Source: Fusarium oxysporum f. sp. lycopersici 4287
Lineage: Eukaryota > Ascomycota > Sordariomycetes > Hypocreales > Nectriaceae
Length of the DNA: 64,000 nucleotides
Direction of reading: 5' to 3'
Assembly (NCBI RefSeq): GCF_000149955.1
Contig: NC_030990.1
Coordinates: 4,453,482 to 4,517,481 of the forward strand
A program made the position numbers and the translations under genes. Below the pieces are notes generated by a model that was not told where the DNA came from, did not search any database, and was given only the letters and a program-made list of their open reading frames with translations. Positions 28,642 to 62,865 of the stretch are shown here, one piece after another. The first letter of the stretch is position 1, and every line of letters begins with the position of its first letter.

Positions 28642-29223
28642 TGCACTATATAGGTAGATATTATTATAAAAATATAATAAATTAATTAATTAATTAAAAC
28701 TACTTATTATATTCTTCCCTAGATATTTTAATTACTACCTAATATATTCTTATATTATATCTAGGCTTATTATATACTTTATAGCACTTAACCCTTAGTC
28801 TAACTAACTTTCTTTAACTACTACTTCTTAATAATTTTATAACTACCTATATATTAATATCTATTTAATTAATTATCTGCTTTATTTTATTTACTATTAT
28901 TATTCCTCCCTTCTATAGTTAGGTTTTTTTTGCCTTTTAGTACTGGCTTAGTATCTTATTTGCCTTTTAAATATTATCTAGCCTAGCTATTAATAAGGTA
29001 ATCTTATATATATATTTCTTTATTAACTTCTCTAGAGACTTTATAGCTTTAATAACTAACTTTAGAGAGCTATTATAATATCTTCTAATTTATTATTTAA
29101 GGTATTTAGACTAAGAGCTAGCCTTAAGTATAGTCTTTGGTATCTTTAAGACCTAAGGGGTTAAAGGGTTAATAACCTCTTTAGCAGGTATTAAAGTCTA
29201 TAGCTATATATTAAGCTTTAAGA

Positions 29224-29602
29224 TGTGACGAATATGGTTTCAAACAGGGAAACTAGTCCGTACTAGGTTTATGTTTGCAGATAGCATAGGGCGTTAATAC
29301 TAAGCAAGTTAGTTATCACGTCTCTTAATAATCAAGTAATGCATATTAAGCTTATTAATGTAAAGAAGTCTTATTAATAGCTAGTAAGCTAAGTTCTATC
29401 TAGTGCTAAATAAATATATATATATATACTAGGTGGCTTACGGTAAGTCGAGCCTGGCTTACGGTAAGTCGTAAGTCCATATCATAAGCCAAGTCGCAAG
29501 GCTTACAGAATGTTCTAGGTTAAAGTGTAAGTCCTTATATAATTAGTAAGAATAAAGTAGGGTATATGTAATATAAGCGCTTTTACCTATTAGGTTATAA
29601 CA
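29224..29602 (-). repeat. Left (3') LTR of element B
   Basis: 379 bp, from TGTGACGAAT to GTTATAACA. It contains two tandem copies of GGCTTACGGTAAGTCG (around 29450-29480). It differs from 44675-45053 mainly by C/T and G/A. Confidence 0.85.
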
Positions 29603-29790
29603 CGATCTCCCTCCCTTTGTTAGTCTTATCCTTAAGACCTATATATCTGCTTTCTTTTTACATTATCCTAGTACATACTAACTTAGACTTATAATCATCT
29701 ATTAAATTTGCTAACACTATATTAGAGTCTAAGGCTACTTATAATTATTAAGTATAAGCAGTTTTAATTAAAAATACTAGTTTCCTTATT

Positions 29791-30310
29791 ATGCTATGCA
29801 GTTATTATAAGCCCTAAGGCCTTAAATGCTAGGCCAAGGAAGGTCATTCTAAATGCACTTAGTATACTTGCTGCAGCCATAAATATAATAGTAAGGGTAT
29901 CTTAATACTTAAAGGTTTATTCCCTTATAGTCTGATTTCTGTGTATTAGGCTGATCTTATAGCCGATTATTTTGCTGCAGAGAAGCGTCGTTTAGAGTAT
30001 AAGGAGGAGGTTACTAAGACTAAGTTATTATAATTATAGCAGCAAGTAAATAAGCGTTTAAGTTATCTAATGCAACTTTATTATTAGAAAAGACAGTTAT
30101 AGAAGCATAGTAATAAAATGCTTTATTATAATATTAAGACTATAGATAATCTTAAAGCTTTAGATAATATAAAGTCTTTTACTGCTATTAAAGCCTAGCT
30201 ATCTAGGGCTTCTAATGTTATTAATTAGGGCAAGGTTTTTTCTACTAGTATTATTAATAGAAGTTCCTTAATAGTTATTAGGCATTAGTAAGATATTTTA
30301 GTAATTCCTA
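29791..30310 (+). pseudogene. Relic antisense Zn2Cys6/coiled-coil gene of element B
   Basis: Read on the plus strand from ATG at 29791, i.e. antisense to element B and between its pol end and 3' LTR. Three of the six Zn2Cys6 cysteines are intact and the other three positions are TAT codons, exactly one RIP-type G-to-A change away from TGT. The spacing is C-X2-C-X6-C-X8-C-X2-C-X6-C. Remaining stops are TAG or TAA, the result expected from CAG, CAA or TGG by transition. Downstream, a charged helical stretch (YFAAEKRRLEYKEEVTKTK and further Lys/Glu/Gln-rich sequence) resembles a coiled coil. The position, strand and domain order are the same as the intact antisense gene of the skippy-like element (39650-40249). 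The gene is dead. Its end is approximate. Confidence 0.6.
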
Positions 30311-31477
30311 TATGTTTTTGCCTTCTAGGTAGTTTTTCTATTTAATTAGGTATATAGTTTATCTGTTAATTTTATCTATATCTCTAATAGCCTCTGCCTT
30401 ATAGACTTCTAGTCCTGTAATTTATTATAGTTTATTACCGGTTTTAATATATATTATATCTGCTGCTAACTCTAGCATTAAGATATAATATACCAGGTAA
30501 TATTAAATTATTAGGGGTAAGTTTAGTTTATAGATATCCTTCTTTTTCTTTTATTTAATTTTAACCACTCTAAGATATTTATAGTCTAACTTATGGCTTA
30601 GTTAGTCTGTTTTAATGTTTTTAGTAGATAGATAAACCATATCCCCCTCCGAGAAGGTTAGTCCCTTTAACCTCTTGGGGTTATAATATTATTGTATCCG
30701 TTTTCTAATGTATTTAAGTTCTGTTTTTATTTCCTTATATAGGTTTTTTAACTTATTACTTTTAATTATAGCAGCTAGGTTAATTAATTTAGGTTTTTAT
30801 GCTTTATAATAAGCATCTAGTATAAATCTAAAGTTTATATCTAATAGTATAAGCTTTATATTTTTATTATAGGCAGTATTATAGGCTAGTTAGGTATATA
30901 GCAGCTTTTTAACCTAATTATCCTGTTTATAGTTAATATAATACTATAGGTATTATTCTAATACTTAGTTTATTTATTCTGTTTATCTATCTATTTAGGG
31001 TCTAAATATTATCGAGAGTCAGTAATTTAGTCCTAAATATAATATAAGTACTTACTAAAATTTTAATGCAAAGATAGGTCCTTTATCTAATAGGATTTCC
31101 CTTAGCAGTCCTTTTTCTCTTACTACCCTATTATAAAAGATATAGGCTATTATTTCTGTATCTATTGCCTCTCTATAGGGTAAGTAGATTAAAAATTTTA
31201 TAAGTCTATCTATAATAACTATAATACTATTATAGAGGATTCTAGTTAAGGGTTCTTCTAATAACGGTAATTTAGTTATAAAGTCTATTATAATTAAACT
31301 TTATAGTTATTCTATTACTTCTAATAGTTGCAGTTCTCTATATGGTTTATGCTATTATGCCTTTATCCTTATATATAGGTTATATTATTTAACTATTTTT
31401 TCTATTTCTTTTCTCTGAATCTTATATCCTTATTATAGTAGTTATCTAAGAGTTTTATTAACTCCTTAATATCTATG

Positions 31478-31956: not shown

Positions 31957-33026
31957 CTATGTAGTAGGTATAAGTAGAATTTGCAAAGAAAGTTATATAT
32001 TTTATCTTTTAGGATCTCCTTTATTAGTGCTATTTATATCTATCCTAATATTTGCATTAGTTATATAAATTAGTATTCTTCTTTCTAGTTCTTCTCTAGG
32101 AGTTATTCCTTAGTCTTAGGTGCGCTAGTATTATAGTCTAGTTATCTGCTAATTGTATCTGCTCTTTTATTATCTAAGCCTTTTTTATAAATAATTATAA
32201 AATTAAATTTATATAAGTATTTAGCATAGTATAGTTATTATTAATTAAGTTCTTATATTATAATAAAGTATAAAATATTCTAATAGTCAGTATAGACTTT
32301 AATTTAGTATATACTTCCTATAAGGTAGTATCTAAATTCCTTAAAACAGTTAATAATTACTAGGAATTCTTTATTATAGATAGGGTAATTAAGTTCTAGT
32401 CTATATAACTTATGTAAGTAAAACGCAATAGGGTATAACTTGCCTTAATTATCTTATTAACCTATTTATCCTCCTAGTGCAAAGTCTAATAAGTCGGTCT
32501 CTAGTTCTATTTCCTTATTAGGGTTAAATATAACTAGTATAAGTTTACTAAGGATAGCTTATTATAGTTATTTAAATACATCCTAAGCTTCTAGTAATTA
32601 AATAAACTTTTGCTCCTTCTTAGTTAATTCTATAAGAGGGTTTATAATTTTACTAAAGTCTTTAATAAATTATTAGTAGTAGTTAGCAAAGCCTAAGAAG
32701 CTTTATACTTCCTTAACTATAGTAAGTCTTAGCTAATCTGCTACTGCTAAGATTTTCTTTTATTTTATTCTAATTTTGCCTAGGGTAATAATATATCCTA
32801 GGAAGTTTACTTCTTTTATATAAAAGTGACTTTTCTCTAGTTTAACTAGTAGGTTAGCATCTTATAGGGCTTTTAAGACCTTATAGATATATTCCTTATG
32901 TTTTTTTTTATTATCTAAGAAGATTAGGATATTATCTAGGTAGTATATGTTACGACCCTAGCGGTTACATCACGTGTACCTCATTATTTTTCTCCAATCA
33001 CAGGAACGGACCCACCACCTCACATT

Positions 33027-33155
33027 GGACCGACCTTCCAATACTTTCGGTCCAAAGATAAGATAAGGACCGACGACTCTCGTTCAACGGTCCTACAGAC
33101 CGATGCATAAACAATATCGGTCCTGAGGGGACCGACGCCAGCACACTATCGGTCC
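33027..33155. promoter_or_regulatory. Array of GGACCG/CGGTCC sites in the LTR (candidate operator)
   Basis: Seven sites occur in 129 bp: GGACCGAC at 33027-33034, 33067-33074 and 33129-33136, and CGGTCC at 33048-33053, 33088-33093, 33118-33123 and 33150-33155. A partial GACCGA is at 33098-33103. The two orientations largely alternate. They lie just upstream of the TATA box, in U3. CGG triplets in defined orientation and spacing are the usual targets of Zn2Cys6 proteins, and this element carries an antisense gene with a Zn2Cys6 motif. The same array recurs in the 3' LTR (about 40443-40571). Function is inferred. Confidence 0.55.
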
Positions 33156-33171
33156 TCACGAAGACCTCTAG

Positions 33172-33179
33172 TATATATA
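33172..33179 (+). promoter_or_regulatory. TATA box of the skippy-like LTR promoter
   Basis: TATATATA, about 35-42 nt upstream of the presumed transcript 5' end. Confidence 0.6.
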
Positions 33180-33378
33180 CACTCCTTTAGCAGTAGATAG
33201 AACTTAGCTCACCAGCTATCAATAAAACTTCTTTACATTGATCAAGCCTAACACGCATTGAATCTACCATTAAGAGACGTGACACTTCGACAAGCTCAGC
33301 ATCACGCCCTACGCCATCTGCCAACAATAAACCTAGCACGGCTTAGTTTATCCACAGTTGGGAACCAACCGTCACACG

Positions 33379-33387
33379 TTGATAGCT
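33379..33387 (+). other. Self-priming primer-binding site
   Basis: TTGATAGCT starts 2 nt after the 5' LTR and is the exact reverse complement of AGCTATCAA at 33214-33222, the probable 5' end of the genomic RNA. Tf1/sushi-group elements prime reverse transcription from their own RNA 5' end in this way. There is no obvious match to a tRNA 3' end. Confidence 0.6.
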
Positions 33388-33388
33388 C

Positions 33389-35992
33389 TTGTTCAGACCG
33401 TACCGCGTAACGCTGAGCAATACAAACGCAATGTCTGCGAACGTCAACCCCGTCCAACAGCAGAACGCAGCTGCCAACCTTCAGGGTCACCAGCCTGCAG
33501 CACCTGCTAACCCTGCACCGGTCAATCGCCCGCCAACCGATCAGAACATGGACGACGCAGACGACTCTTCCCAGAGTTCCGACGACTCGGAGGTCGAACG
33601 ACTTCGCGAGCAGCTCGGGAACGTCACCAATGAGATGAACGAAATGCGACAGATGCTGGAAGAATTCACCGCTCTGCAGCACCAGCAGAATCAGAGCAAC
33701 AACAACACCCAGCAGGAGATGTACAACCTGGCCTCGGCAGCCAACAATGGGAGAGACCCAGGAGAAGTCCTCAAGCCTAGCCCGCCTGAGTACTTCGACG
33801 GAACCCCGAGCAAGCTACCCACGTTCCTTACTCAAAGCCGAGCCTTCATCACGTACTATCCGAATCAGTTTCGCAACGATTCCGCCAAAGTAATGTACAT
33901 GGCAGGAAGACTCATCAAAACTGCAGCCCAATGGTTTCAACCCATCATGAATGACTACATGACAAACCCACCTTACAAACTACAACCACGAACCGCTTTA
34001 CTCTTCGGAGAAAACGGACGTCACGAGATGGAAGAAGCACTCAAAATGGCGTTCGGAACCATTGACGAAAAAGGCCAAGCAGAAAGGAAAATCAAAACAC
34101 TTAAGCAAACCGGATCAGCATCTACCCTAGGAGTTGAGTTTTTGCAACTCGCAAGCAAGCTACCCTGGGACCAAGACGTATTGATGTCATTTTTCTTCGA
34201 CGCACTCAAAGAACAAGTCCAACAAGAATTATGGGAGAAAGATCGACCCAGGACATTGGTCGAATACATCAATATGGCAGTCAAAATCGATGACCGACAA
34301 TTCGCATGGAGAACTCGTAACTCACGAGGAAACAAGGGACGACAAGACAATAAACCTAGATACCATGCCAACCAAGGGAGAACTCGACAAACTGACACGT
34401 CCTACGGCACCGAAGCAGGACCAATGGCTATAGGAATGACTAAACGAGACAAGTCCAAAGTCACTTGCTACAACTGTGGCAAGAAAGGACACTACGAACG
34501 AGAATGTAAGAACCCCGTCAAAACTAACCAAAAATACAGACCTGTTCCAGAAGGTAAGAAAATCAACATGGTCAAGAAAAACGAAGAACCTCAGATGGCA
34601 ATCAAAACCATCAACATGACTCGAAAAGACGGATACGATATGACACAAGCAAAGTACATCAACAACTTCGATCCAACCCTCGATGTACACGACCCGTTCC
34701 TTAGCAAAGAAGAAACCCTCGAAAAATACTATTCCAAACTGGAACCAGAACAACGACCTGTTCTAGGACATACGGCCCCAACCACAGAAGTTCTCTATTC
34801 ACGAAGCAAGGAAGAAAAAAGAGAGAAAAGAAACAACCGCGAACAGAAGAAACGGCAACAGGCCAAAAAAGACAAAACAATTGAGTTAGAATGGGTACCA
34901 GTACCCGAGCACAACCAACAACCCACCAAAGGAAAATCCATTTTTATGGTCAGAAAGGGAAAGGAAATTGCCCCTAAAACGGACAATGAACCTAGTACCA
35001 AGGAGGTCAACCAGGAAATCGACAACATTCCTGTCAAAGTCACCTCACGACGACCAAACCGACATACCAATGATCCCAATTACTTGGAATCCTGCAGAGT
35101 TCAAAGGGAGTCCGACGCCAGGAAACTCAGGAATAAGAACGAGAAAACAATCTGGAACACCCCTATCGTACCACAATACGATGAATTCAACCAACGTTTC
35201 TGGACCAACAAACACCAGAAATATACGGAACTCGCCAGGGAACGAGCCATCACGGAACAAGATGACGACATCTACATCCGAGCGTACACAAAAGAAATGT
35301 TGGAAGACCCTACAACTCCAGAAGAACGTATGCAAGCGGAAAAGGACCTAAGGAGGTACCCTAATCACCCGAACCACAAGCAGATATCATGGGTATCATG
35401 CACACGACACTACTGCTCGAGACACCAGCAAGATAAGATAGCAAACGATTGCTTCCCAGTACAAGTTCCGGAACATCAAGAACAGAAACCCTACCTGATA
35501 ATCGACACAGTTGGGTACCGAGTTACAAAGAAATACAGGGGATCTCAAGTAGCAAAACTAGAAGCTCACACAGAAACACGAGAACGAGCTCTAGCACATA
35601 TTCAAAATTCTAGACACGTCTCTCAGTGGAGACAACGGGTACAGCAGGAAGTCGAGATCGCCGAAGACGAAACACTCGACCAAGAACTCAGTCAAATCAA
35701 TCAGGACATCACCCGATGGGAAGGAGAACTATCCCAAGATGAACAAGATATCCTTCGACAGCTAGACAAGCAACAGTTGCAAGAACGATTGATACAAACT
35801 GAAGAAGAAAAAGGAAGACCCCTCACTGAAGGAGAAAAAGCAGACATCATCCTAGACCACGAGGTAGGAAAGATGGAAGCTGCTTATCAACAAAAATTAG
35901 CCACCCAGAACGAATGTCCCGACGACATCAACTGCACCAAGAGCGAATGCAGCATGGATCACCCATGGGGAAAAGGCACGCGCCATCTGTAA
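33389..35992 (+). CDS. Gag polyprotein of the skippy-like element
   Basis: An open frame of 867 codons from the start of the interior. The first ATG in good position is at 33431 (MSANVNPVQQQNAAA). The N-terminal third has a Gln/Asn-rich stretch and a short coiled coil (about 70-105), then the retrotransposon Gag/capsid core (PPEYFDGTPSKLPTFLTQ through FAWRTRNSRGNK). A CCHC zinc knuckle, CYNCGKKGHYEREC, follows near residue 360. The long charged C-terminal region is larger than in most gypsy Gags. Gag forms the cytoplasmic virus-like particle and packages element RNA. The frame overlaps pol by 79 nt. Confidence 0.9.
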   Translation: MFRPYRVTLSNTNAMSANVNPVQQQNAAANLQGHQPAAPANPAPVNRPPTDQNMDDADDSSQSSDDSEVERLREQLGNVTNEMNEMRQMLEEFTALQHQQNQSNNNTQQEMYNLASAANNGRDPGEVLKPSPPEYFDGTPSKLPTFLTQSRAFITYYPNQFRNDSAKVMYMAGRLIKTAAQWFQPIMNDYMTNPPYKLQPRTALLFGENGRHEMEEALKMAFGTIDEKGQAERKIKTLKQTGSASTLGVEFLQLASKLPWDQDVLMSFFFDALKEQVQQELWEKDRPRTLVEYINMAVKIDDRQFAWRTRNSRGNKGRQDNKPRYHANQGRTRQTDTSYGTEAGPMAIGMTKRDKSKVTCYNCGKKGHYERECKNPVKTNQKYRPVPEGKKINMVKKNEEPQMAIKTINMTRKDGYDMTQAKYINNFDPTLDVHDPFLSKEETLEKYYSKLEPEQRPVLGHTAPTTEVLYSRSKEEKREKRNNREQKKRQQAKKDKTIELEWVPVPEHNQQPTKGKSIFMVRKGKEIAPKTDNEPSTKEVNQEIDNIPVKVTSRRPNRHTNDPNYLESCRVQRESDARKLRNKNEKTIWNTPIVPQYDEFNQRFWTNKHQKYTELARERAITEQDDDIYIRAYTKEMLEDPTTPEERMQAEKDLRRYPNHPNHKQISWVSCTRHYCSRHQQDKIANDCFPVQVPEHQEQKPYLIIDTVGYRVTKKYRGSQVAKLEAHTETRERALAHIQNSRHVSQWRQRVQQEVEIAEDETLDQELSQINQDITRWEGELSQDEQDILRQLDKQQLQERLIQTEEEKGRPLTEGEKADIILDHEVGKMEAAYQQKLATQNECPDDINCTKSECSMDHPWGKGTRHL

Positions 35993-38900
35993 CGGAGCGA
36001 CAGATAGGCGAGAAATCAGAGGCTAAACTACCTAAGAAAGCTCTGAGAATGGCAACGAAAGGACGCCAACGAACCTGCCTAGAACTAAAAGTCAGAATCA
36101 AGGGCAAGTGGCTAAGTGCACTTGTAGATAGCGGAGCCGACATGAACTTCATTTCCCCTACAACGGTTAATGAACTAAGGCTACCATGGAAGGACAAGAA
36201 CGACCCATATACAGTACATGACGGACAAGGAGAAACCTATCTTTACGAAAACGGAAATATCACCAGAGAGATTGATCACCTCAAGGTATTCGTTAACGGA
36301 AAAAACCAAGGTATCGACTTCGACATCATCCCAGTATGGAGATACGATCTAGTACTCGGATACCCATGGCTATTACGCTACAACCCACAATTCAACTGGA
36401 GAACTGGCCAGGTGGACTGCGAAGACCACCCTTCAGATGATGAAAGCGATTCAGGCTACGACACGAGATCTCGAACTTCGACTGAAGAGAGCAGCGAAGA
36501 CAGGAGCGGCAAAGTACCGCCCATTCCAAAAGGAACACGACACAAGTACCACAAAGGCAAGGTTAAATGCATCAGACGAACGATAGCATCTCTCAAAGGA
36601 CAGTTCAAACAACTGGACCAAGACATCAAGCAAATGAAACAGATTGCCGCGAAGGAATCTGACGAACGACTCAAGAACATACCACCGGAGTATCGTATCT
36701 ATGAGAAATTGTTTCAAGAGGAACTAGACACAAAGTTACCCCAACACACGGACTACGATATTGAAATCGTACTAAAGGATGGAAAGAACCCGAAATTCTT
36801 CCCCATCTATAATCTATCTCAAGATGAGCTAGGAACGCTCAGAGAATGGATAAACGACATGATACGGAAAGGATACATTAGACCATCAAAATCCTCAGCA
36901 GGATTCCCGGTCATGTTCGTACCAAAACCCAATTCGAACAAACTACGACTTGTAGTGGATTACCGACAACTTAACGAAATCACGGAAAAGGACAGAACAC
37001 CGTTACCACTCATCACCGAACTCAAGGACCGTCTATTCGGCAAAAAATGGTTTACCGCCCTCGATCTCAAATCTGCTTACAATCTCATTCGAATCAAAGA
37101 AGGCGACGAATGGAAAACAGCCTTTCGAACGAAATACGGACTATTCGAATACTTGGTTATGCCTTTTGGATTAACCAACGCACCCGCAGTATTCCAACGC
37201 ATGATCACGAACGTACTTCGAGAATACCTTGACATCTTTGTAGTCTGCTACCTAGACGATATCCTCATCTTCTCTGACACAGAAGAAGAGCACACAGAAC
37301 ACGTCCACAAGGTTTTGAAAGCACTGCAAGACGCCAACATGCTCGTCGAACCCACCAAAAGTCACTTTCATCAGTCTCAAGTAACGTACTTAGGACATGA
37401 AATCTCGCACAACGAAATCAGGATGGACAGACGAAAGATAGCAGCAGTCGCTGAATGGAAAGTCCCAACATCGGTAAAAGAAACCCAATCCTTCTTAGGA
37501 TTCGCCAACTACTACCGACGATTCATCAAAGACTTCAGTAAAACCGCTATCCCACTCACGGAAATCACCAAAAAGGATAAACAATTCCAATGGAACGACA
37601 AGGCACAAGAAGCTTTCGAGAAGCTTAAATCAGCCATCACAAGCGAACCCGTCCTTGTTATGTTTGACCCCGACCGGCAAGTTGAACTCGAGACCGATGC
37701 TTCCGACTTCGCCTTGGGAGGACAAATAGGACAACGAGACGACAACGGTGTACTACACCCTATTGCTTTCTACTCTCATAAGATGCACGGAGCAGAACTC
37801 AACTACCCCATCTATGACAAAGAATTCCTAGCTATCGTCAACTGCTTTAAGGAATTCAGGCACTACCTCAGAGGAAGCAAACACCCAGTGAAAGTGTTCA
37901 CCGATCACAAAAACATAGCTTACTTTGCAACGACGCAAGAGCTAAACCGACGACAATTACGCTACGCCGAATACCTATGTGAATTCGACTTCACCATAGC
38001 GCACTGTAAAGGAACAGACAATGGACGCGCAGACGCCATTAGTCGACGACCAGACTTTGACACTGGAACTGTCAAGACCAAGGAACAACTCTTGGAAACC
38101 AACTCTAAGGGAGAATATCAGTTCACACAACCTGTCAAAACCATCGCCTTAACCCGCAAAGGAATAACAGAAGAAGAGAAACAACGCTACATCGGATTCA
38201 AGAAGTACATCTCGATGCAACAACTAAAAGAACACCATCGAGACATGCACGAGAAACCCGAAGAAGCCAGCGCAAGCCATCTTTCTTGGTATTTCGGATC
38301 AGGAAGAGATGAACGAATCAGACAAATCATGGACAAATGCCCAACCTGCAAACAAAAACCACAGGGATGGAGATACCCGATACAATCCCTCACAGACCAA
38401 GATGAACAAGAAAGAGTGGAACAAGAATTTATCTACGAAATCCACGCACACCCATTACATGGACACCAAGGAGTCACGAAAACAATGAAACGACTTCAAG
38501 AACTAGGCTACCGCCATTTCAAAAAGGGACAAGTTGAAAAAGTCATAAAACAATGCGATTTGTGTGCAAAAACAAAGGCGCAAAGACACAAACCCTATGG
38601 ACAACTACAGCCCTTACCAGTAGCACAACGACCTTGGGACTCGATCACAATGGACTTCATAACCAAACTACCTTTGTCAGAAGAACCCTCAACCGGAATC
38701 TTCTATGACAGTATCATGGTTATTGTTGACCGACTCACAAAGTTCTCTTACTACCTACCCTACAGAGAAGCAACAGACGCAGAAGAACTTTCTTATGTTT
38801 TTTACAGACACATTGTTAGCATACACGGGTTACCTACGGAAATCCTTTCGGATAGAGGACCTACGTTTGCAGCAACATTTTGGCAATCACTTATGGCACG

Positions 38901-39717
38901 ACTTGGACTGAACCACCGACTCACGACAGCGTTTCGACCGCAAGTCGATGGACAAACCGAACGAATGAACCAAGTACTTGAACAGTACTTACGGTGTTAC
39001 ATCAACTACGAACAGAACGATTGGGTTGAGAAACTACCAATAGCCCAACTAGCCTACAACACCGCCTACAACGAAAGTACGAAGCTTACACCAGCCTACG
39101 CAAATTTCGGTTTCACACCAAACGCATACCACAATGCACGACCAGAGAAGTCAATCAATCCAGCCGCCATTATCAAAAGCGAAGACATGCAGGATCTACA
39201 TGAATATCTGAAGACAGAACTCGAATTTGTTAGAAAACGCATGAAAAATTACTATGACCCAAAACGGTTGAAGGGACCAACCTTTTCGGAGGGAGACATG
39301 GTCTACCTAGCCACAAAAAACATCAAAACAGACCGACCAAGTCACAAATTGGACTACAAATTCATCGGACCTTACAAGGTACTACAAAAAATCTCAGAAA
39401 ACAACTACAAACTGGACCTACCACCGAAAGTTAGGCTCCATCCGATCTTTCACGTTTCATTACTCGAATCAGCAGCGGACACAATACAAGTCAAAACAGG
39501 CAACGAACCACGAGAAATCTCAGGACCAGAAGTCTATGAAGCAGAGGCTATCAGGGACACCCGCAAAATAAACGGTCAAAGAGAATACTTGATAAAATGG
39601 AAAAACTACCCAGAAAATGAAAATACATGGGAACCACCAAAACACCTCGTTAATGCCCAGCGACTTCTGAAGGATTTTCATCAACGGGCTCGAAAAAAGG
39701 AACGTCGCCCAAAATAG
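35914..39717 (+). CDS. Pol polyprotein of the skippy-like element (PR-RT-RH-IN-chromodomain)
   Basis: 1,267 codons in the -1 frame relative to gag, overlapping it at 35914-35992, so expression may need -1 frameshifting. Domains in order are the aspartic protease (LVDSGADMNF, about 70), reverse transcriptase (VDYRQLN, then YLDDILIFS near 450), RNase H (ETDASDFALGG, then TDHKNIAYF), and integrase with an HHCC finger (HPLHGHQG ... CDLCAKTK). The integrase D,D-35-E core has MDFITKLP, ILSDRGPTF and DGQTERMNQVLEQYL. A C-terminal chromodomain (YEAEAIRDTR ... EYLIKWKNYPENENTWEP) marks it as a chromovirus and may direct integration to marked chromatin. All catalytic residues are present. The last 68 nt overlap the antisense gene tail-to-tail. 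Confidence 0.93.
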   Translation: MSRRHQLHQERMQHGSPMGKRHAPSVTERQIGEKSEAKLPKKALRMATKGRQRTCLELKVRIKGKWLSALVDSGADMNFISPTTVNELRLPWKDKNDPYTVHDGQGETYLYENGNITREIDHLKVFVNGKNQGIDFDIIPVWRYDLVLGYPWLLRYNPQFNWRTGQVDCEDHPSDDESDSGYDTRSRTSTEESSEDRSGKVPPIPKGTRHKYHKGKVKCIRRTIASLKGQFKQLDQDIKQMKQIAAKESDERLKNIPPEYRIYEKLFQEELDTKLPQHTDYDIEIVLKDGKNPKFFPIYNLSQDELGTLREWINDMIRKGYIRPSKSSAGFPVMFVPKPNSNKLRLVVDYRQLNEITEKDRTPLPLITELKDRLFGKKWFTALDLKSAYNLIRIKEGDEWKTAFRTKYGLFEYLVMPFGLTNAPAVFQRMITNVLREYLDIFVVCYLDDILIFSDTEEEHTEHVHKVLKALQDANMLVEPTKSHFHQSQVTYLGHEISHNEIRMDRRKIAAVAEWKVPTSVKETQSFLGFANYYRRFIKDFSKTAIPLTEITKKDKQFQWNDKAQEAFEKLKSAITSEPVLVMFDPDRQVELETDASDFALGGQIGQRDDNGVLHPIAFYSHKMHGAELNYPIYDKEFLAIVNCFKEFRHYLRGSKHPVKVFTDHKNIAYFATTQELNRRQLRYAEYLCEFDFTIAHCKGTDNGRADAISRRPDFDTGTVKTKEQLLETNSKGEYQFTQPVKTIALTRKGITEEEKQRYIGFKKYISMQQLKEHHRDMHEKPEEASASHLSWYFGSGRDERIRQIMDKCPTCKQKPQGWRYPIQSLTDQDEQERVEQEFIYEIHAHPLHGHQGVTKTMKRLQELGYRHFKKGQVEKVIKQCDLCAKTKAQRHKPYGQLQPLPVAQRPWDSITMDFITKLPLSEEPSTGIFYDSIMVIVDRLTKFSYYLPYREATDAEELSYVFYRHIVSIHGLPTEILSDRGPTFAATFWQSLMARLGLNHRLTTAFRPQVDGQTERMNQVLEQYLRCYINYEQNDWVEKLPIAQLAYNTAYNESTKLTPAYANFGFTPNAYHNARPEKSINPAAIIKSEDMQDLHEYLKTELEFVRKRMKNYYDPKRLKGPTFSEGDMVYLATKNIKTDRPSHKLDYKFIGPYKVLQKISENNYKLDLPPKVRLHPIFHVSLLESAADTIQVKTGNEPREISGPEVYEAEAIRDTRKINGQREYLIKWKNYPENENTWEPPKHLVNAQRLLKDFHQRARKKERRPK

Positions 39718-40249
39718 AATTCCAATCGATCATGTCCACGGCACCCAGGGACTGAGCATTAGAAATCACCACGGACTCGTCCTGGAGCTCACCAGACTCC
39801 TCCTGGGATTGCATCCCACGAGCAAACAACTCATCACCCTTCTTCTTCAACAAACGCTTCTGACTGCGAATACGAGCCAATTTCGCCATAGCAGCTTCAA
39901 GAGCCTTTTCAGCTTGCTCTTCCTCCTTCTCCAACTTAACGCGAGCTTTCATGTTCTTTTCCACTATTCGAAGAAAAGAACGTCAGAACAACATCAGAAA
40001 CAGAAAACAAAAAAAAAAAAAACGGAACATACAGTAGGAAGCAACACCCGAACCATCGCACACCACCTTGGCCTCAGTACAATTCTGGCACCGATGAGAT
40101 TGATCGCCTTTGACCTGACAAGAAAGGCCCTTGCGGAAACAACGGGAACACGGCATGATCTCGTCACCAAACCTGACAATGTACTCAGAAAGTTTGACGG
40201 CCTCTAACGTTTTCGGATGAGGTTTGCTTTTGGAAACACGACCTGACAT
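39650..40249 (-). CDS. Antisense spliced Zn2Cys6/coiled-coil gene inside the skippy-like element
   Basis: Exon 1 is 40033-40249 and exon 2 is 39650-39963, both minus strand. The 69-nt intron (39964-40032) has GTATGT and TTCGAATAG boundaries. Joined, they give 176 aa without interruption. Residues 34-64 have cysteines at 34, 37, 44, 54, 57 and 64, i.e. C-X2-C-X6-C-X9-C-X2-C-X6-C, the fungal binuclear zinc-cluster pattern. Unlike GAL4-type proteins, the segment between C37 and C44 has only two basic residues. Residues about 74-115 form a Lys/Glu-rich coiled coil (KARVKLEKEEEQAEKALEA) suited to dimerisation. The rest is acidic with hydrophobic patches (VDMIDWNSILGDVPFFEP), like an activation region. 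It lies between pol and the 3' LTR. A DNA-binding role is inference. Confidence 0.72.
39964..40032 (-). other. Intron of the antisense gene
   Basis: 69 nt, GTATGTTCC donor, a long T tract on the minus strand, AATAG acceptor. Removal joins exon 1 (phase 1) to exon 2 (phase 2) and restores one frame. Confidence 0.65.
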
Positions 40250-40363
40250 TTTGTCAGCATTGAAAATAAAAAAACAAGACTAGGTTTGACTCACGACCAA
40301 CGGATGGAAGAAACGACGGTTATGCAGGTCTTGAGGACAAGACCCAACGGAGGGGAGAGATCG

Positions 40364-40792
40364 TGTTACGACCCTAGCGGTTACATCACGTGTACCTCAT
40401 TATTTTTCTCCAATCACAGGAACGGACCCACCACCTCACATTGGACCGACCTTCCAATACTTTCGGTCCAAAGATAAGATAAGGACCGACGACTCTCGTT
40501 CAACGGTCCTACAGACCGATGCATAAACAATATCGGTCCTGAGGGGACCGACGCCAGCACACTATCGGTCCTCACGAAGACCTCTAGTATATATACACTC
40601 CTTTAGCAGTAGATAGAACTTAGCTCACCAGCTATCAATAAAACTTCTTTACATTGATCAAGCCTAACACGCATTGAATCTACCATTAAGAGACGTGACA
40701 CTTCGACAAGCTCAGCATCACGCCCTACGCCATCTGCCAACAATAAACCTAGCACGGCTTAGTTTATCCACAGTTGGGAACCAACCGTCACA
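40364..40792 (+). repeat. 3' LTR of the skippy-like element
   Basis: 429 bp, apparently identical to the 5' LTR. It also lies 115 bp upstream of the start codon of the antisense gene (40249), so it could supply that gene's promoter. Confidence 0.95.
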
Positions 40793-44456: not shown

Positions 44457-44674
44457 CACCCTGCATATTCGTAGTAGGGTATTTATTAATATTAGGGCAC
44501 AAAGAGTATTAATAGTTCCCCGTATCTAGTAAATCTTAGCTATAAGTTTAGCCATACTAGGTAGTGCTCTAGTATAAGGAGGTGCTAGTCTAGTATTTAT
44601 ATTACTAGATATCTTAATAGTATAATATTACTTAGTTATTTAATGTAGTATATTCTAAATAAGAGCTATTAATA

Positions 44675-45053
44675 TGTAATAAATGTGGTTTTAAATAGGG
44701 AAACTAGTTTATACTAGGTTTATATTTATAGATAGCATAGGGCATTAATACTAAGCAAGTTAGTTATTACATCTCTTAATAATTAAGTAATACGTATTAA
44801 GCTTATTAATATAAAGAAGTCTTATTAATAGCTAGTAAGCTAAGTTCTATCTAGTGCTAAATAAATATGTATATATATACTAGGTGGCTTATAGTAAGTT
44901 AAGCCTGGCTTATAGTAAGTCGTAAGTCTATATCATAAGCCGAGTTGCAAGGCTTACGGAATGTTCTAGGTTAAAGCGTGAGTCCTTACGTGATTGGTGA
45001 GAATAAAGTGGGGTGCACGTGACGTAAGCGCTTTTACCCGTTAGGTCGTAATA
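44675..45053 (-). repeat. Right (5') LTR of element B
   Basis: 379 bp. Its left half is more degraded and its right half (GTGGGGTGCACGTGACG region) less degraded than the other LTR. The adjoining minus-strand sequence, TTAATAGCTCTT starting 2 nt after the LTR, is a probable self-priming primer-binding site. It can pair with TTAATAGCT at 44825-44833 inside the LTR. Confidence 0.82.
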
Positions 45054-46245: not shown

Positions 46246-46297
46246 GGAAAAGTAGTTTATATGCTTAGATAGTTTATATACTTATTATATATATTAT
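46246..46297 (-). repeat. Right inverted repeat of the degraded Fot-like element
   Basis: An inverted counterpart of 28590-28641. Its outer end touches the first base of LTR element C (46298). Confidence 0.75.
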
Positions 46298-46535
46298 TGT
46301 CACGGGCTGGGCTCGGTAGGGCAGGTGAACGGGGAACGCTTCAGGCAGAATACGGTCTATTGCTACGGATAGGCACTGCAGGCAGGTCAGGCTCTATTAA
46401 CAAGACGTAGCTCGAGGAGCTACGTTCAGGAACTATCTGGTCGGTAAACAAAGTCTCTGCGATAACGTATCGCCACGTGATCCGGATCTACCTTGTTAGT
46501 GGTCTAGGGTAGGCCAGTCTGGTCGAGCTGTGACA
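46298..46535 (-). repeat. Left (3') LTR of element C
   Basis: 238 bp, apparently identical to 51750-51987. Confidence 0.92.
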
Positions 46536-51715: not shown

Positions 51716-51749
51716 TGCGTTCGGCGTCCAATTGGTGGGAGCTACGTAG

Positions 51750-51987
51750 TGTCACGGGCTGGGCTCGGTAGGGCAGGTGAACGGGGAACGCTTCAGGCAG
51801 AATACGGTCTATTGCTACGGATAGGCACTGCAGGCAGGTCAGGCTCTATTAACAAGACGTAGCTCGAGGAGCTACGTTCAGGAACTATCTGGTCGGTAAA
51901 CAAAGTCTCTGCGATAACGTATCGCCACGTGATCCGGATCTACCTTGTTAGTGGTCTAGGGTAGGCCAGTCTGGTCGAGCTGTGACA
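51750..51987 (-). repeat. Right (5') LTR of element C, with hairpin and self-priming site
   Basis: 238 bp. It contains inverted arms ACGTAGCTC (51857-51865) and GAGCTACGT (51869-51877) separated by 3 nt. On the minus strand, 2 nt after the LTR, ACGTAGCTC (51739-51747) can pair with GAGCTACGT of the LTR, a self-priming arrangement like that of the skippy-like element. Confidence 0.85.
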
Positions 51988-60119: not shown

Positions 60120-62865
60120 TTATTCAGAACTACTAAAGTTAACAACATGCCTTCCAAATTCCGCCAAGTCTCCAACGTCTTGCCCAGTGAGATACCAATC
60201 AGAATTATCCAACAGTGACTGGAAGTAGCCGTAATACTCATCCAGTGGTATGTCCATAGGGAGTAGGTCATCGCTTGGCACAGTCCCTGTTTTAACTGCG
60301 GATTGTATCCAGGCTTGTGACATCTCGTTCAAGTTTGACGGATGCTGTTCGGCGTCTAAACGCAAGGCCAAACTATCATGTTCAGCACTTGTCACGCCAG
60401 GAGCAGGCCTCGATAGACCTGCGTCTACCACTGGCTGTGGCGTATTATCTGCTTCGTCGGTATTGTTCACGGGCTCTACAGGGTCATGGCCTTGACTATC
60501 ATCAGCGCCCTGGCGTACATTGTTATACGCAGGTTGCGAGCGATCGCGCGAGGGCAAAGCTGTACCCTCATTTCTTTGTAAATGCTCAGGCAAATGATGC
60601 AAAATCTCATGGATCTCTTGGAGTCGTTCAACGGCGGTAGTGTTGTGGTTGTCGGCCAGGTACTGTAAACTCTCCATGGCCTCCCCCAGTCCAGGCGACG
60701 GGTTGATCTTATCCTCATCTTCACAAGCAGAGTCACACAAAGCTGTGAGAATCAACACAAACGTAGCGGAAAATATGGCATCGCAGTCGAAGAACCCAAA
60801 GATAGCTATAGGTCGGTAGTTTTAGCCTTTTTCTCAGCTCCAATGATACATTGAGGGCTCTTACCTAGCAGATTCATTCGTCGTAGTGTTATAATAGTAC
60901 GTACTATACGCCTAGCTGCTTCAGTGCATGCTCGACAAAGCTGTGCGAGCGAAGAGTTCCCCATTGGCTCCAGGCCAGAACTCGCTCCCGCAAGGATTAA
61001 ATGTGCTACGTGTAGCATTACCGGACGTATGGTGAGTAAGGTGGCCTGTGCTTGTCAGCTTCAACGCTACTTAAAGCTTGAAGGATAACATGTAGGGAAT
61101 GGCTAGCTGCCACGAGGAAACAACTTACCTGGTATAGCATCAGCTGAAGAGAGGCAGTTGTTCTCACAGAAACATTTGCATTTGGTCCGTGAGCTACCGT
61201 TGTTAGATTCTCTGGTATCTCGCTCGAAATATTATGCAGACATCTTATGATCTCTTTGACATCATGCACGAAAGAGTCTTGGTACTGACGATTAGGGCTA
61301 TAGAGGTCTAGTGATTCTCAGTCAGTCGAAAGCATCGCGTTGAGATAGATCCATTACCTATAAGGATACGGCTTGTAACTCTTGCGATTCGAGCATTTGT
61401 GCGTATTGGTTGGGTGGAGCTGAAGCCCGGCTGGTCGGTGGGATACTCTAGCACGATGAAAGCGTCGTCAATACCATATGGGTGGCCCGTCGCTGCTGCC
61501 AACCGTCTAGTGATCGACATGTTAACAAAAGCTAGTAGAAGGAACAAGTGTGCGAAAGCATTACCTTTCTTGCATATAAATCGTCCACCATAGCCTACCG
61601 ATGTGGGCTTTCTCCGATCGAAGTATTCGTGTTCCCTCCAGAGGACGGTGGTAACCATGTGTGACTGCGAGCCGCAAGGCTATGCTGGTCTAAATGATCA
61701 GGTACAATACTCATGACTCAGGATAAAGATAGTTAAAGGCTTACATATATGTACGCTTCTTCCTTTCGGTTCATGGCTTGTAGGTAAACACCGAGCAGCG
61801 TCAATGTCTCAATTGCAACCCTCCTTGAGCATGTTGCTCGCTAGGTGTTGGCAATTGTGCATGGACAAACTCAAATAAACTAGTTCCTAAGTCCGTATCG
61901 CCATTGCTCGCTGAGCTTTCACCAGACATTAGCTTTCCAACTGCAAATATGATGCTCATGCGCAAAAACCATGGCGTAGGCGGGAGCTGGCCTTCTGGAT
62001 CCGTATAGTAGAGCTCGATGTTGTCGGAGACCTCTCGCGCGTCAAAGTGACTTTGACTCTGACCGATGTACAGGGTGACAACGTCTAGGAGACGGTAGGC
62101 TTCTGATTCGCTGGGAAGAAGGGGCAGAGAGCCATGATACGTGTTGTTGGCTTGTCTTGGAGACGAGTTGTGATTGTTAGAGACGTGAGCGGCAGGGCGG
62201 GGAATGTCGCGAATATGTCGAGCATTAGTGAGCAGGTTCTGGACCCTGAAGCCGAAGGTAGCGCTTGAGCTCAACGACGAGTCGGTTTCTATTGCTGTAC
62301 CATGAATTAGCACATGCTGCTCCCCATCTCAAACGTGAATTGCATACACCGGCCCGTTAATGGTATCGAGGTCGCTGGTCTGGTCGTAGATCTTGGAATC
62401 GGTGACGGCGCAACGGGAGGTGTGTCTTGCGGCTGTTGAGCGTCGTGACCAGTAGAGATAGGACTTGGGACATCAACAGCATCGGGGACCCATTCTCCAA
62501 TGTCTTGATTCCTCCCTTCATACTGAGCCAGGCGGTTCTCGAGATCCTCAACGTGACTAGAAGATTGTCAATATTGATGCAAAACGACGCGTGAATGGCA
62601 AACCATGAGGGGGAGTTTACGTTACTGAATAGACTTTTCTTTCTTGACGAAGAGGAACACTGCACTTAAGTCCACGCTTGTGGCAATACTCACAAGGTAC
62701 GGTCCCGGAACATTTGACCTTCTTCTTCCGACATGTCAGGCATCTAGATACGCGTTTGTCAGGGAGGCACAGCTGATAAGCGAGGGAGTTCACTCACGCT
62801 AATGACGTCTTGTTCTGTGTTCTTCTCACGCCCGAAACCCTGGGAGATCGAGACGAGGTAGGCAT
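60120..62865 (-). CDS. Zn2Cys6 transcription factor (Fungal_trans), 9 exons, one frameshift
   Basis: Exons on the minus strand: 62798-62865, 62621-62743, 62348-62556, 61745-62294, 61565-61689, 61358-61506, 61129-61307, 60865-61045 and 60120-60805. All eight introns (50-83 nt) have GT/AG ends and fit the frame. The zinc cluster CLTCRKKKVKCSG...CEYCHKRGLKC (C-X2-C-X6-C-X5-C-X2-C-X6-C) lies at about residues 24-46, then a coiled linker (HVEDLENRLAQYE). The Fungal_trans middle-homology region spans about 190-430 (YLQAMNRKEEAYIYTSIALRLAVTHG, GTRILRSEKAHIGRLWW). The C-terminus is acidic. A one-base deficit in a run of three C (61819-61821) shifts the frame within exon 4. Correcting it gives about 756 aa. 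No target is evident. The tail-to-tail and neighbouring genes give no clear pathway. Confidence 0.82.

Follow-up and report, generated by a model that had tools for sequence, protein, structure and literature searches.

An intron-bearing antisense gene and U3 palindrome arrays in skippy-type retrotransposons of Fusarium oxysporum

The window analysed here, a stretch of 64,000 nucleotides from Fusarium oxysporum f. sp. lycopersici 4287, contains an intact Ty3/gypsy element of the skippy type at positions 32948-40792 (positions without a contig label refer to the window). Its 5' LTR (32948-33376) and 3' LTR (40364-40792), both on the plus strand and of the form TG...CA, are exact repeats with 429/429 identical bases, and the element is flanked by a 5-bp target site duplication (TSD), GTATA. 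A gag ORF (33389-35992, plus strand; 867 aa from the start given by the ORF tool) with capsid-like and CCHC matches overlaps a pol ORF (35914-39717, plus strand; 1267 aa) with matches to protease, reverse transcriptase, RNase H, integrase and chromodomain. The LTR pair, the TSD, gag and pol with all five domains characterize a chromodomain Ty3/gypsy element, in agreement with the preliminary description of this DNA, which had spoken of an intact skippy-like retrotransposon. Judged by position and sequence, a purine-rich stretch ahead of the 3' LTR (40334-40363, plus strand) is probably the polypurine tract. Going by the lengths, we take the element to be skippy itself of F. oxysporum (7846 bp with 429-bp LTRs). 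A survey of chromoviruses places skippy under the heading Pyret; one of its figure legends shows extra ORFs whose function is unknown, and "antisense" is a term that it never uses (PMC2864245).

Between pol and the 3' LTR, the minus strand carries a gene of two exons (40033-40249 and 39650-39963) separated by a phase-1 GT-AG intron of 69 nt (39964-40032; GTATGT...CTGAC...TAG). Joining 40249-40033 to 39963-39650 gave the open frame of 176 aa that had been predicted beforehand, and an in-frame TGA within the intron closes the unspliced frame and rules out an unspliced reading. Exon 1, for which homologous exons exist in relatives, contains a six-cysteine cluster (40058-40150), while exon 2 encodes a charged helical stretch, probably a coiled coil, and an acidic-aromatic tail; its last 68 nt, corresponding to the last 22 codons of a coding sequence of 531 nt, overlap the end of pol. 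The cysteines follow the plan C-X2-C-X6-C-X9-C-X2-C-X6-C exactly as originally claimed, and the more permissive expression C-X2-C-X6-C-X5-12-C-X2-C-X6-9-C matched twice in the six frames of the window and in 0/30 windows from a Markov simulation. The second match (62662-62742, minus strand) lies outside the element and belongs to a Zn2Cys6 cluster of host type. The label Zn2Cys6, given to the antisense protein in the preliminary description, thus held with respect to the cysteine spacing but not by the Pfam profile PF00172, since the window protein scored 15.1 bits and the paralogue on C6 9.1 bits, both below the gathering cut-off of 21.

Across lineages the six cysteines align, with losses in decayed copies, and their spacing is consistent with a zinc cluster. 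An AlphaFold model of exon 1, based on an alignment of 6 sequences, was of low confidence (pLDDT 53.9), and a search of solved structures returned only weak matches of the coiled-coil type. Compared with aligned relatives, the helical stretch of the window protein is shorter by 14 residues, which equals two heptads and therefore suits a coiled coil. A motif [VI]-[DE]-W in the tail is kept in the copies without a stop at this place, and in the window it lies directly ahead of the pol overlap; together with further acidic and hydrophobic residues, it may form part of an activation region. The predicted architecture is accordingly that of a putative zinc cluster, followed by a probably dimerizing coiled coil and an acidic-aromatic tail. 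Near the start of each LTR (32962-32976 and 40378-40392) lies a block CGGTTAC[AG]TCACGTG, which is kept in several lineages despite replacement of the remaining U3 and is a possible core promoter of the antisense gene.

Searching the genome (61.2 Mb, 71 contigs) with two antisense proteins as queries revealed relatives at at least 18 distinct loci; these and all other whole-genome counts given here are lower bounds. Four weak matches with E >= 0.01 are left out of this count (C10:499506, C7:3015862, C13:194957 and C1:5192381), and the first two of them were rejected as relatives because their sequences are host-type Zn2Cys6. Four copies are nearly identical (C5, C63, C14 and C68): the exons do not differ among C5, C63 and C14, whereas C68 combines an identical exon 1 with a frame-shifting small indel in exon 2, and a T-run in the intron differs in length in the C14 copy, where it is longer by one T, and in the C68 copy. 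In the element on contig C68 (L036), the antisense gene has small indels and the matches to pol are interrupted, and both are perhaps assembly errors. Open exons together with all six cysteines were found at 4 of the at least 18 loci (C5, C63, C14 and C6), and at C4:4977413 the exons are open but one cysteine has apparently been lost. The remaining 13 loci contain stops or, in C68, the frameshift, and the stops in the aligned decayed copies fall where relatives carry glutamine or tryptophan. At C6, the locus L026:7827-8511 is a deletion derivative or mosaic in which a piece of an LTR, the tail of pol, the antisense gene (spliced and intact, 210 aa) and a further LTR have been kept; its two LTR pieces differ from each other, and it is possibly a retained copy.

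The gene is tied to one clade of elements. Pairing with pol ends drew on 46 listed matches, 19 from the skippy clade (44-100% identity) and 27 from other gypsy elements of at least two families (37-40% identity). Among these, the antisense gene overlaps or lies at most 83 nt away from 16/19 skippy-clade pol ends, as against 0/27 of the others. The three skippy-clade pol ends without the gene (C68:152351, C1:161798 and C5:4483717) carry 7 to 13 stops each, and the gene at C10:2873467 and at C65:25, the latter on the end of a contig, lacks a pol partner among the matches listed. Scans of viral contigs and genome contigs, made with an alignment of two proteins, recovered no relative. Intron position and phase 1 are homologous in the window and seven further loci, with intron lengths of 69, 52, 51, 49, 50, 49, 47 and 49 nt (acceptor lost in the last), and a motif scan placed a candidate intron of 52 nt at the same position in the divergent locus C4:4977413; including the window-type copies, lengths range from 47 to 71 nt. 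Together with the clade association and the selection described below, this strongly supports the view of the preliminary description that a genuine spliced antisense gene is present. Its argument that a kept antisense intron means that the antisense RNA is not the template of reverse transcription is sound in logic, and the homologous introns add a comparative argument that such an intron persists through reverse transcription.

Selection was assessed on aligned exon codons, excluding the pol overlap and leaving out L041. Between the relatives on C6 and C12, differences at first, second and third codon positions numbered 46/29/111 over 194 codons (pN 0.19, pS 0.77), and between the window and C6 72/52/93 over 142 codons (pN 0.45, pS 0.73). 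Repeat-induced mutation produces transitions, and transversions are for this reason the cleaner test of selection. For C6 and C12 they were distributed as 17/12/48, and among distant pairs transversions were more frequent at third than at first positions in 17/19 and at third than at second positions in 19/19 pairs. First and third positions were equal within one (52, 51) in the pairs window-L027 and window-L029, and the close pairs L027-L029 and L028-L030 had almost no transversions. In pairs with finite dS, dN/dS of the antisense gene ranged from 0.18 to 0.66, and it was not low everywhere, with values of 0.66 for window-L027 and 0.58 for window-L029. The comparison among copies proposed in the preliminary description thus indicates that the antisense protein frame is under purifying selection; the skippy clade has kept this accessory gene for a long time.

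The U3 regions of both LTRs contain an array of four palindromes of the form [GA]GACCG-N15-CGGTCC (33027-33155 in the 5' LTR and 40443-40571 in the 3' LTR), all with the same inner spacing of 15 bases. The array in the 5' LTR is followed by a TATA-like sequence, AGTATATATA, at 33170, and the palindrome of the 3' LTR that is nearest to the antisense gene lies about 190 bp upstream of its start codon. Seven copies of the 6-mer CGGTCC/GGACCG are present in the window U3, a count reached in 0/500 shuffles, as compared to 106-500 of 500 shuffles for six control stretches (three R-U5 regions, the leader, pol and the LTR of another family). Genome-wide, the palindrome occurs at at least 43 places and a reversed control at at least 3; judged by the spacers, C4:93583 and C8:2022682 are the only ones of the 43 listed places that match no LTR copy. 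The palindrome pattern of a second lineage was found at at least 19 places and its control at none, among the matches listed. This second lineage is represented by L028 with three GATCACG-N8-CGTGATC units 32 bp apart and by L030, which has the same arrangement with decay, whereas L027 and L029 carry AGGACCG as direct repeats.

Five further LTRs were chosen solely by homology of their other half, with 40 of 140 candidates scored; the U3 was read for these 5 of 14 selected extra LTRs. Several LTRs, among them those on C39, C11, C42 and C13, are known from pattern matches. Arrays were present in 4/5: L071 (CTGATC six times, 0/500 shuffles), L072 (GGATCA six times, 0/500), L073 (CTGATC four times, 4/500) and L075 (GCTCAC three times, 18/500). 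The fifth, L074, had no U3-like sequence and no array (499/500); at this locus (C14:65620-65850), the R-U5 half of an LTR is fused to upstream DNA that is unrelated and has a TATA-like region of another kind. In total, 21 U3 stretches, many of them siblings, were compared with 500 shuffles each. The observed count was reached in at most 5/500 shuffles for the window, L028, L030, L067, L069, L071, L072, L073, L049, L048 and L053, of which L067 and L069 had entered the test via the palindrome pattern search itself and L048 and L053 were significant through AT-rich words that may reflect decay. Intermediate values (8-28 of 500) were obtained for L029, L075 and L047, and 7/21 stretches had no significant array (L027 122/500, L031 67, L041 91, L045 234, L026 496 and 498, and L074).

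Half-sites are unchanged where neighbouring bases have diverged. Comparing the window U3 with a diverged LTR on C3, to which a stretch at C6:1617780 is identical and which was therefore counted once, 0/48 half-site positions were changed as opposed to 25/132 others (p = 2e-4; p = 0.001-0.003 with any single palindrome omitted). Between L028 and an LTR on C15, the numbers were 0/28 and 16/75 (p = 0.004), and p rose to 0.05 and 0.13 when either of the shared palindromes was omitted. The loci for both comparisons came from the pattern search and are biased toward intact arms, a bias that the omission of single palindromes and an imperfect third palindrome not demanded by the search reduce but do not eliminate.

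Gene and U3 have diverged much more strongly than pol. Between the window and L027-L030, pol dS is 0.28-0.50 and gene dS 1.2-2.8, and in the same pairs the U3 has been replaced (56-68% of alignable bases identical) while R-U5 is 85-92% identical. L027 and L029 share 93% identity in the gene, 96% in its upstream region and 91-94% in U3, but only 65% in the N-terminal part of gag, 81% in the C-terminal part and 83-85% in pol, and the gag N-part of L027 resembles that of the window (83%). Since L027 shares gene and U3 with L029, and gag and pol far less, gene and U3 appear to have moved as one block, and these elements form a mosaic of related elements, for which template switching is the probable cause. 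In L028 and L029, divergence is strong in the gag N-part as well, so that the antisense gene is not the sole swapped or fast-evolving module. Gene type and array type match in 11/13 gene loci with a U3 that was read, with decayed arrays typed by remnants and L026 and L045 unassignable to an array type; the matching groups are the window, L028/L030/L041, L027/L029/L047/L048 and L031/L049/L053. The window's array is also carried by the C63, C14 and C68 copies. Gene and U3 adjoin each other, and their joint inheritance is in itself no proof of an interaction. From cysteine two to cysteine three, the loop reads FRKGLS or FRSGKK in proteins that accompany GGACCG arrays and FKNKKE or FKYxKE in those that accompany GATCAC arrays; in L026 it is FKNKIN, and the half-sites next to it are GCTCAC-like but do not reach significance as an array. 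Recognition may be set by this loop. At C2:5401384, a single window-type palindrome lies near a gene locus of another array type (C2:5403408) and is perhaps part of an inserted LTR.

On balance, we lean towards the interpretation that the antisense gene encodes a small sequence-specific DNA-binding protein with the U3 palindromes of its own LTRs as main target. The protein would bind zinc and, as a dimer, attach to the palindromes in both LTRs. The array lies directly upstream of the sense TATA-like box in the 5' LTR and ahead of the antisense gene in the 3' LTR, and one protein could therefore drive the synthesis of genomic RNA as well as the expression of its own gene. In view of the acidic tail, activation or interference with silencing is more probable than repression. 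In LTR elements, both U3 copies are made from the 3' U3 during reverse transcription, and since the gene adjoins this 3' U3, regulator and sites could be exchanged in a single template switch. We tentatively propose, as a plausible extension held with less conviction, that skippy-clade elements carry a swappable control cassette, in which the antisense gene, with its intron, codes for a DNA-binding regulator and the adjoining U3 holds a private palindrome array for it. If so, one template switch would place the entire transcription of an element under a new pair of regulator and sites; activation between lineages would thereby be prevented, and lineages could escape silencing.

Alternatively, the gene may restrain its own element, with copy number being limited either by U3 binding of the protein or by pairing of the antisense mRNA with the pol end. 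HTLV HBZ and antisense RNAs damp their own elements in much this way, and the 68-nt overlap with pol could yield double-stranded RNA. Skippy-like elements of F. oxysporum have been reported to form small RNAs (PMC11130915). We nevertheless regard negative self-regulation as unlikely, because purifying selection on the protein argues that a purely RNA-based role is not the whole story and the kept [VI]-[DE]-W tail with its acidic and hydrophobic residues resembles an activation region in sequence.

Arrays of enhancer sites for host factors are common in the U3 of LTRs, and the palindromes could likewise serve host transcription factors and be exchanged as a means of evading control by the host. 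The antisense protein would then have another task, such as nuclear RNA handling, integration targeting or Gag binding. In favour of this reading, the gag N-part of L028 and L029 has diverged strongly too, and the gene is hence not the only fast module. On the other hand, the L027 gene follows U3 and not gag, and the exact palindrome is almost absent beyond these LTRs (2 of 43 listed places; control 3), so that we consider host-factor sites, and with them the other roles of the protein, rather improbable. A function of the palindromes as hairpins in RNA or single-stranded DNA, serving, for instance, strand transfer or the formation of the 3' end, is suggested by the folding of the array, which as a single DNA strand folds far better than shuffles (z = -6.6), but it appears very improbable given that the half-sites of other lineages (L072, L027 and L029) are mainly direct repeats and that the two versions of the window array differ outside the arms, with no compensatory changes within them. 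A chance ORF, kept open merely through the pol overlap or recent transposition, might be invoked for the last 22 codons and the four nearly identical copies, but is virtually dismissed by the small extent of the overlap and its exclusion from the codon tests, the occurrence of the gene at at least 18 loci across divergent elements with exon structure and intron kept, its presence at 16/19 versus 0/27 pol ends and the purifying selection.

LTR elements with antisense accessory genes have been described before, and the new observations made here are the U3 palindrome arrays beside such a gene, the conservation of half-sites and the joint exchange of gene and U3; the LTR palindromes, the pol overlap and the four nearly identical copies also go beyond the preliminary description. 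HTLV-1 HBZ is a spliced antisense bZIP gene that is driven from the 3' LTR and encodes a nuclear regulator of its own LTR. The skippy gene resembles it as a spliced antisense gene near the 3' LTR, but HBZ comes from a retrovirus and is of the bZIP type. A review mentions that the 3' LTR of HTLV has an antisense promoter and describes the function of antisense accessory genes in LTR retrotransposons as unknown (PMC7264820). Boty brtn and genes of plant elements lie antisense between pol and the 3' LTR (PMC7264820; PMC8365987; PMC4227169), and the skippy gene belongs to this kind (aORF-3R) by virtue of its location and its presence in most family copies (16/19 listed). With Boty, skippy has in common that a fungal LTR element with gag-pol and chromodomain bears an extra antisense gene at this place; the likeness to brtn concerns position and strand as given in descriptions, and the accounts of brtn, as far as accessible, mention neither LTR arrays nor cassette exchange. 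The plant aORF-3R genes, namely Grande gene23 and those of RIRE2, Retand and PvRetro13, share place and strand and are kept in families, and gene23 is transcribed from its own promoter and has a nuclear product; according to the sections consulted, their proteins have no clear similarity to others, apart from an SMC domain for PvRetro13 (PMC7264820). The skippy gene departs from them in its six-cysteine cluster, its conserved intron and its candidate target sites.

The best functional parallel is the VANC system of the Arabidopsis VANDAL DNA transposons. VANC proteins are sequence-specific, with short repeat motifs that vary between related elements as targets, they are more variable than the transposase, and they were experimentally shown to cause loss of DNA methylation (PMC5735166). 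In skippy, regulator and repeated motifs likewise both vary between related elements, as read from sequence. VANC belongs to a plant DNA transposon and has the domains DUF1985 and DUF287 (PMC5735166), and homology is not expected. If our interpretation is correct, the skippy gene would be the counterpart of this system in LTR elements, and the antisense siting beside the 3' U3 would find its reason in the travel of regulator and sites in one recombination event. A search of open-licence literature, weak as evidence of absence, found no account of the skippy antisense gene and none of a fungal retrotransposon whose own protein binds palindromes in LTRs. The case offers a defined candidate protein and a defined short palindrome, and related pairs can serve as controls for specificity.

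Two further observations concern the surroundings of the element. Direct repeats with 90% identity at 29218-29517 and 44669-44968 resemble the LTRs of a related degraded element of opposite orientation, within which the skippy copy looks nested. The pol end of this older element lies at about 30236-30583 on the minus strand, and five proteins of the antisense family gave no match in 28901-30700. A pair of 241-bp repeats with 99.6% identity (46295-46535 and 51747-51987) has the look of LTRs from a different gypsy family, in which pol reaches almost to the 3' LTR.
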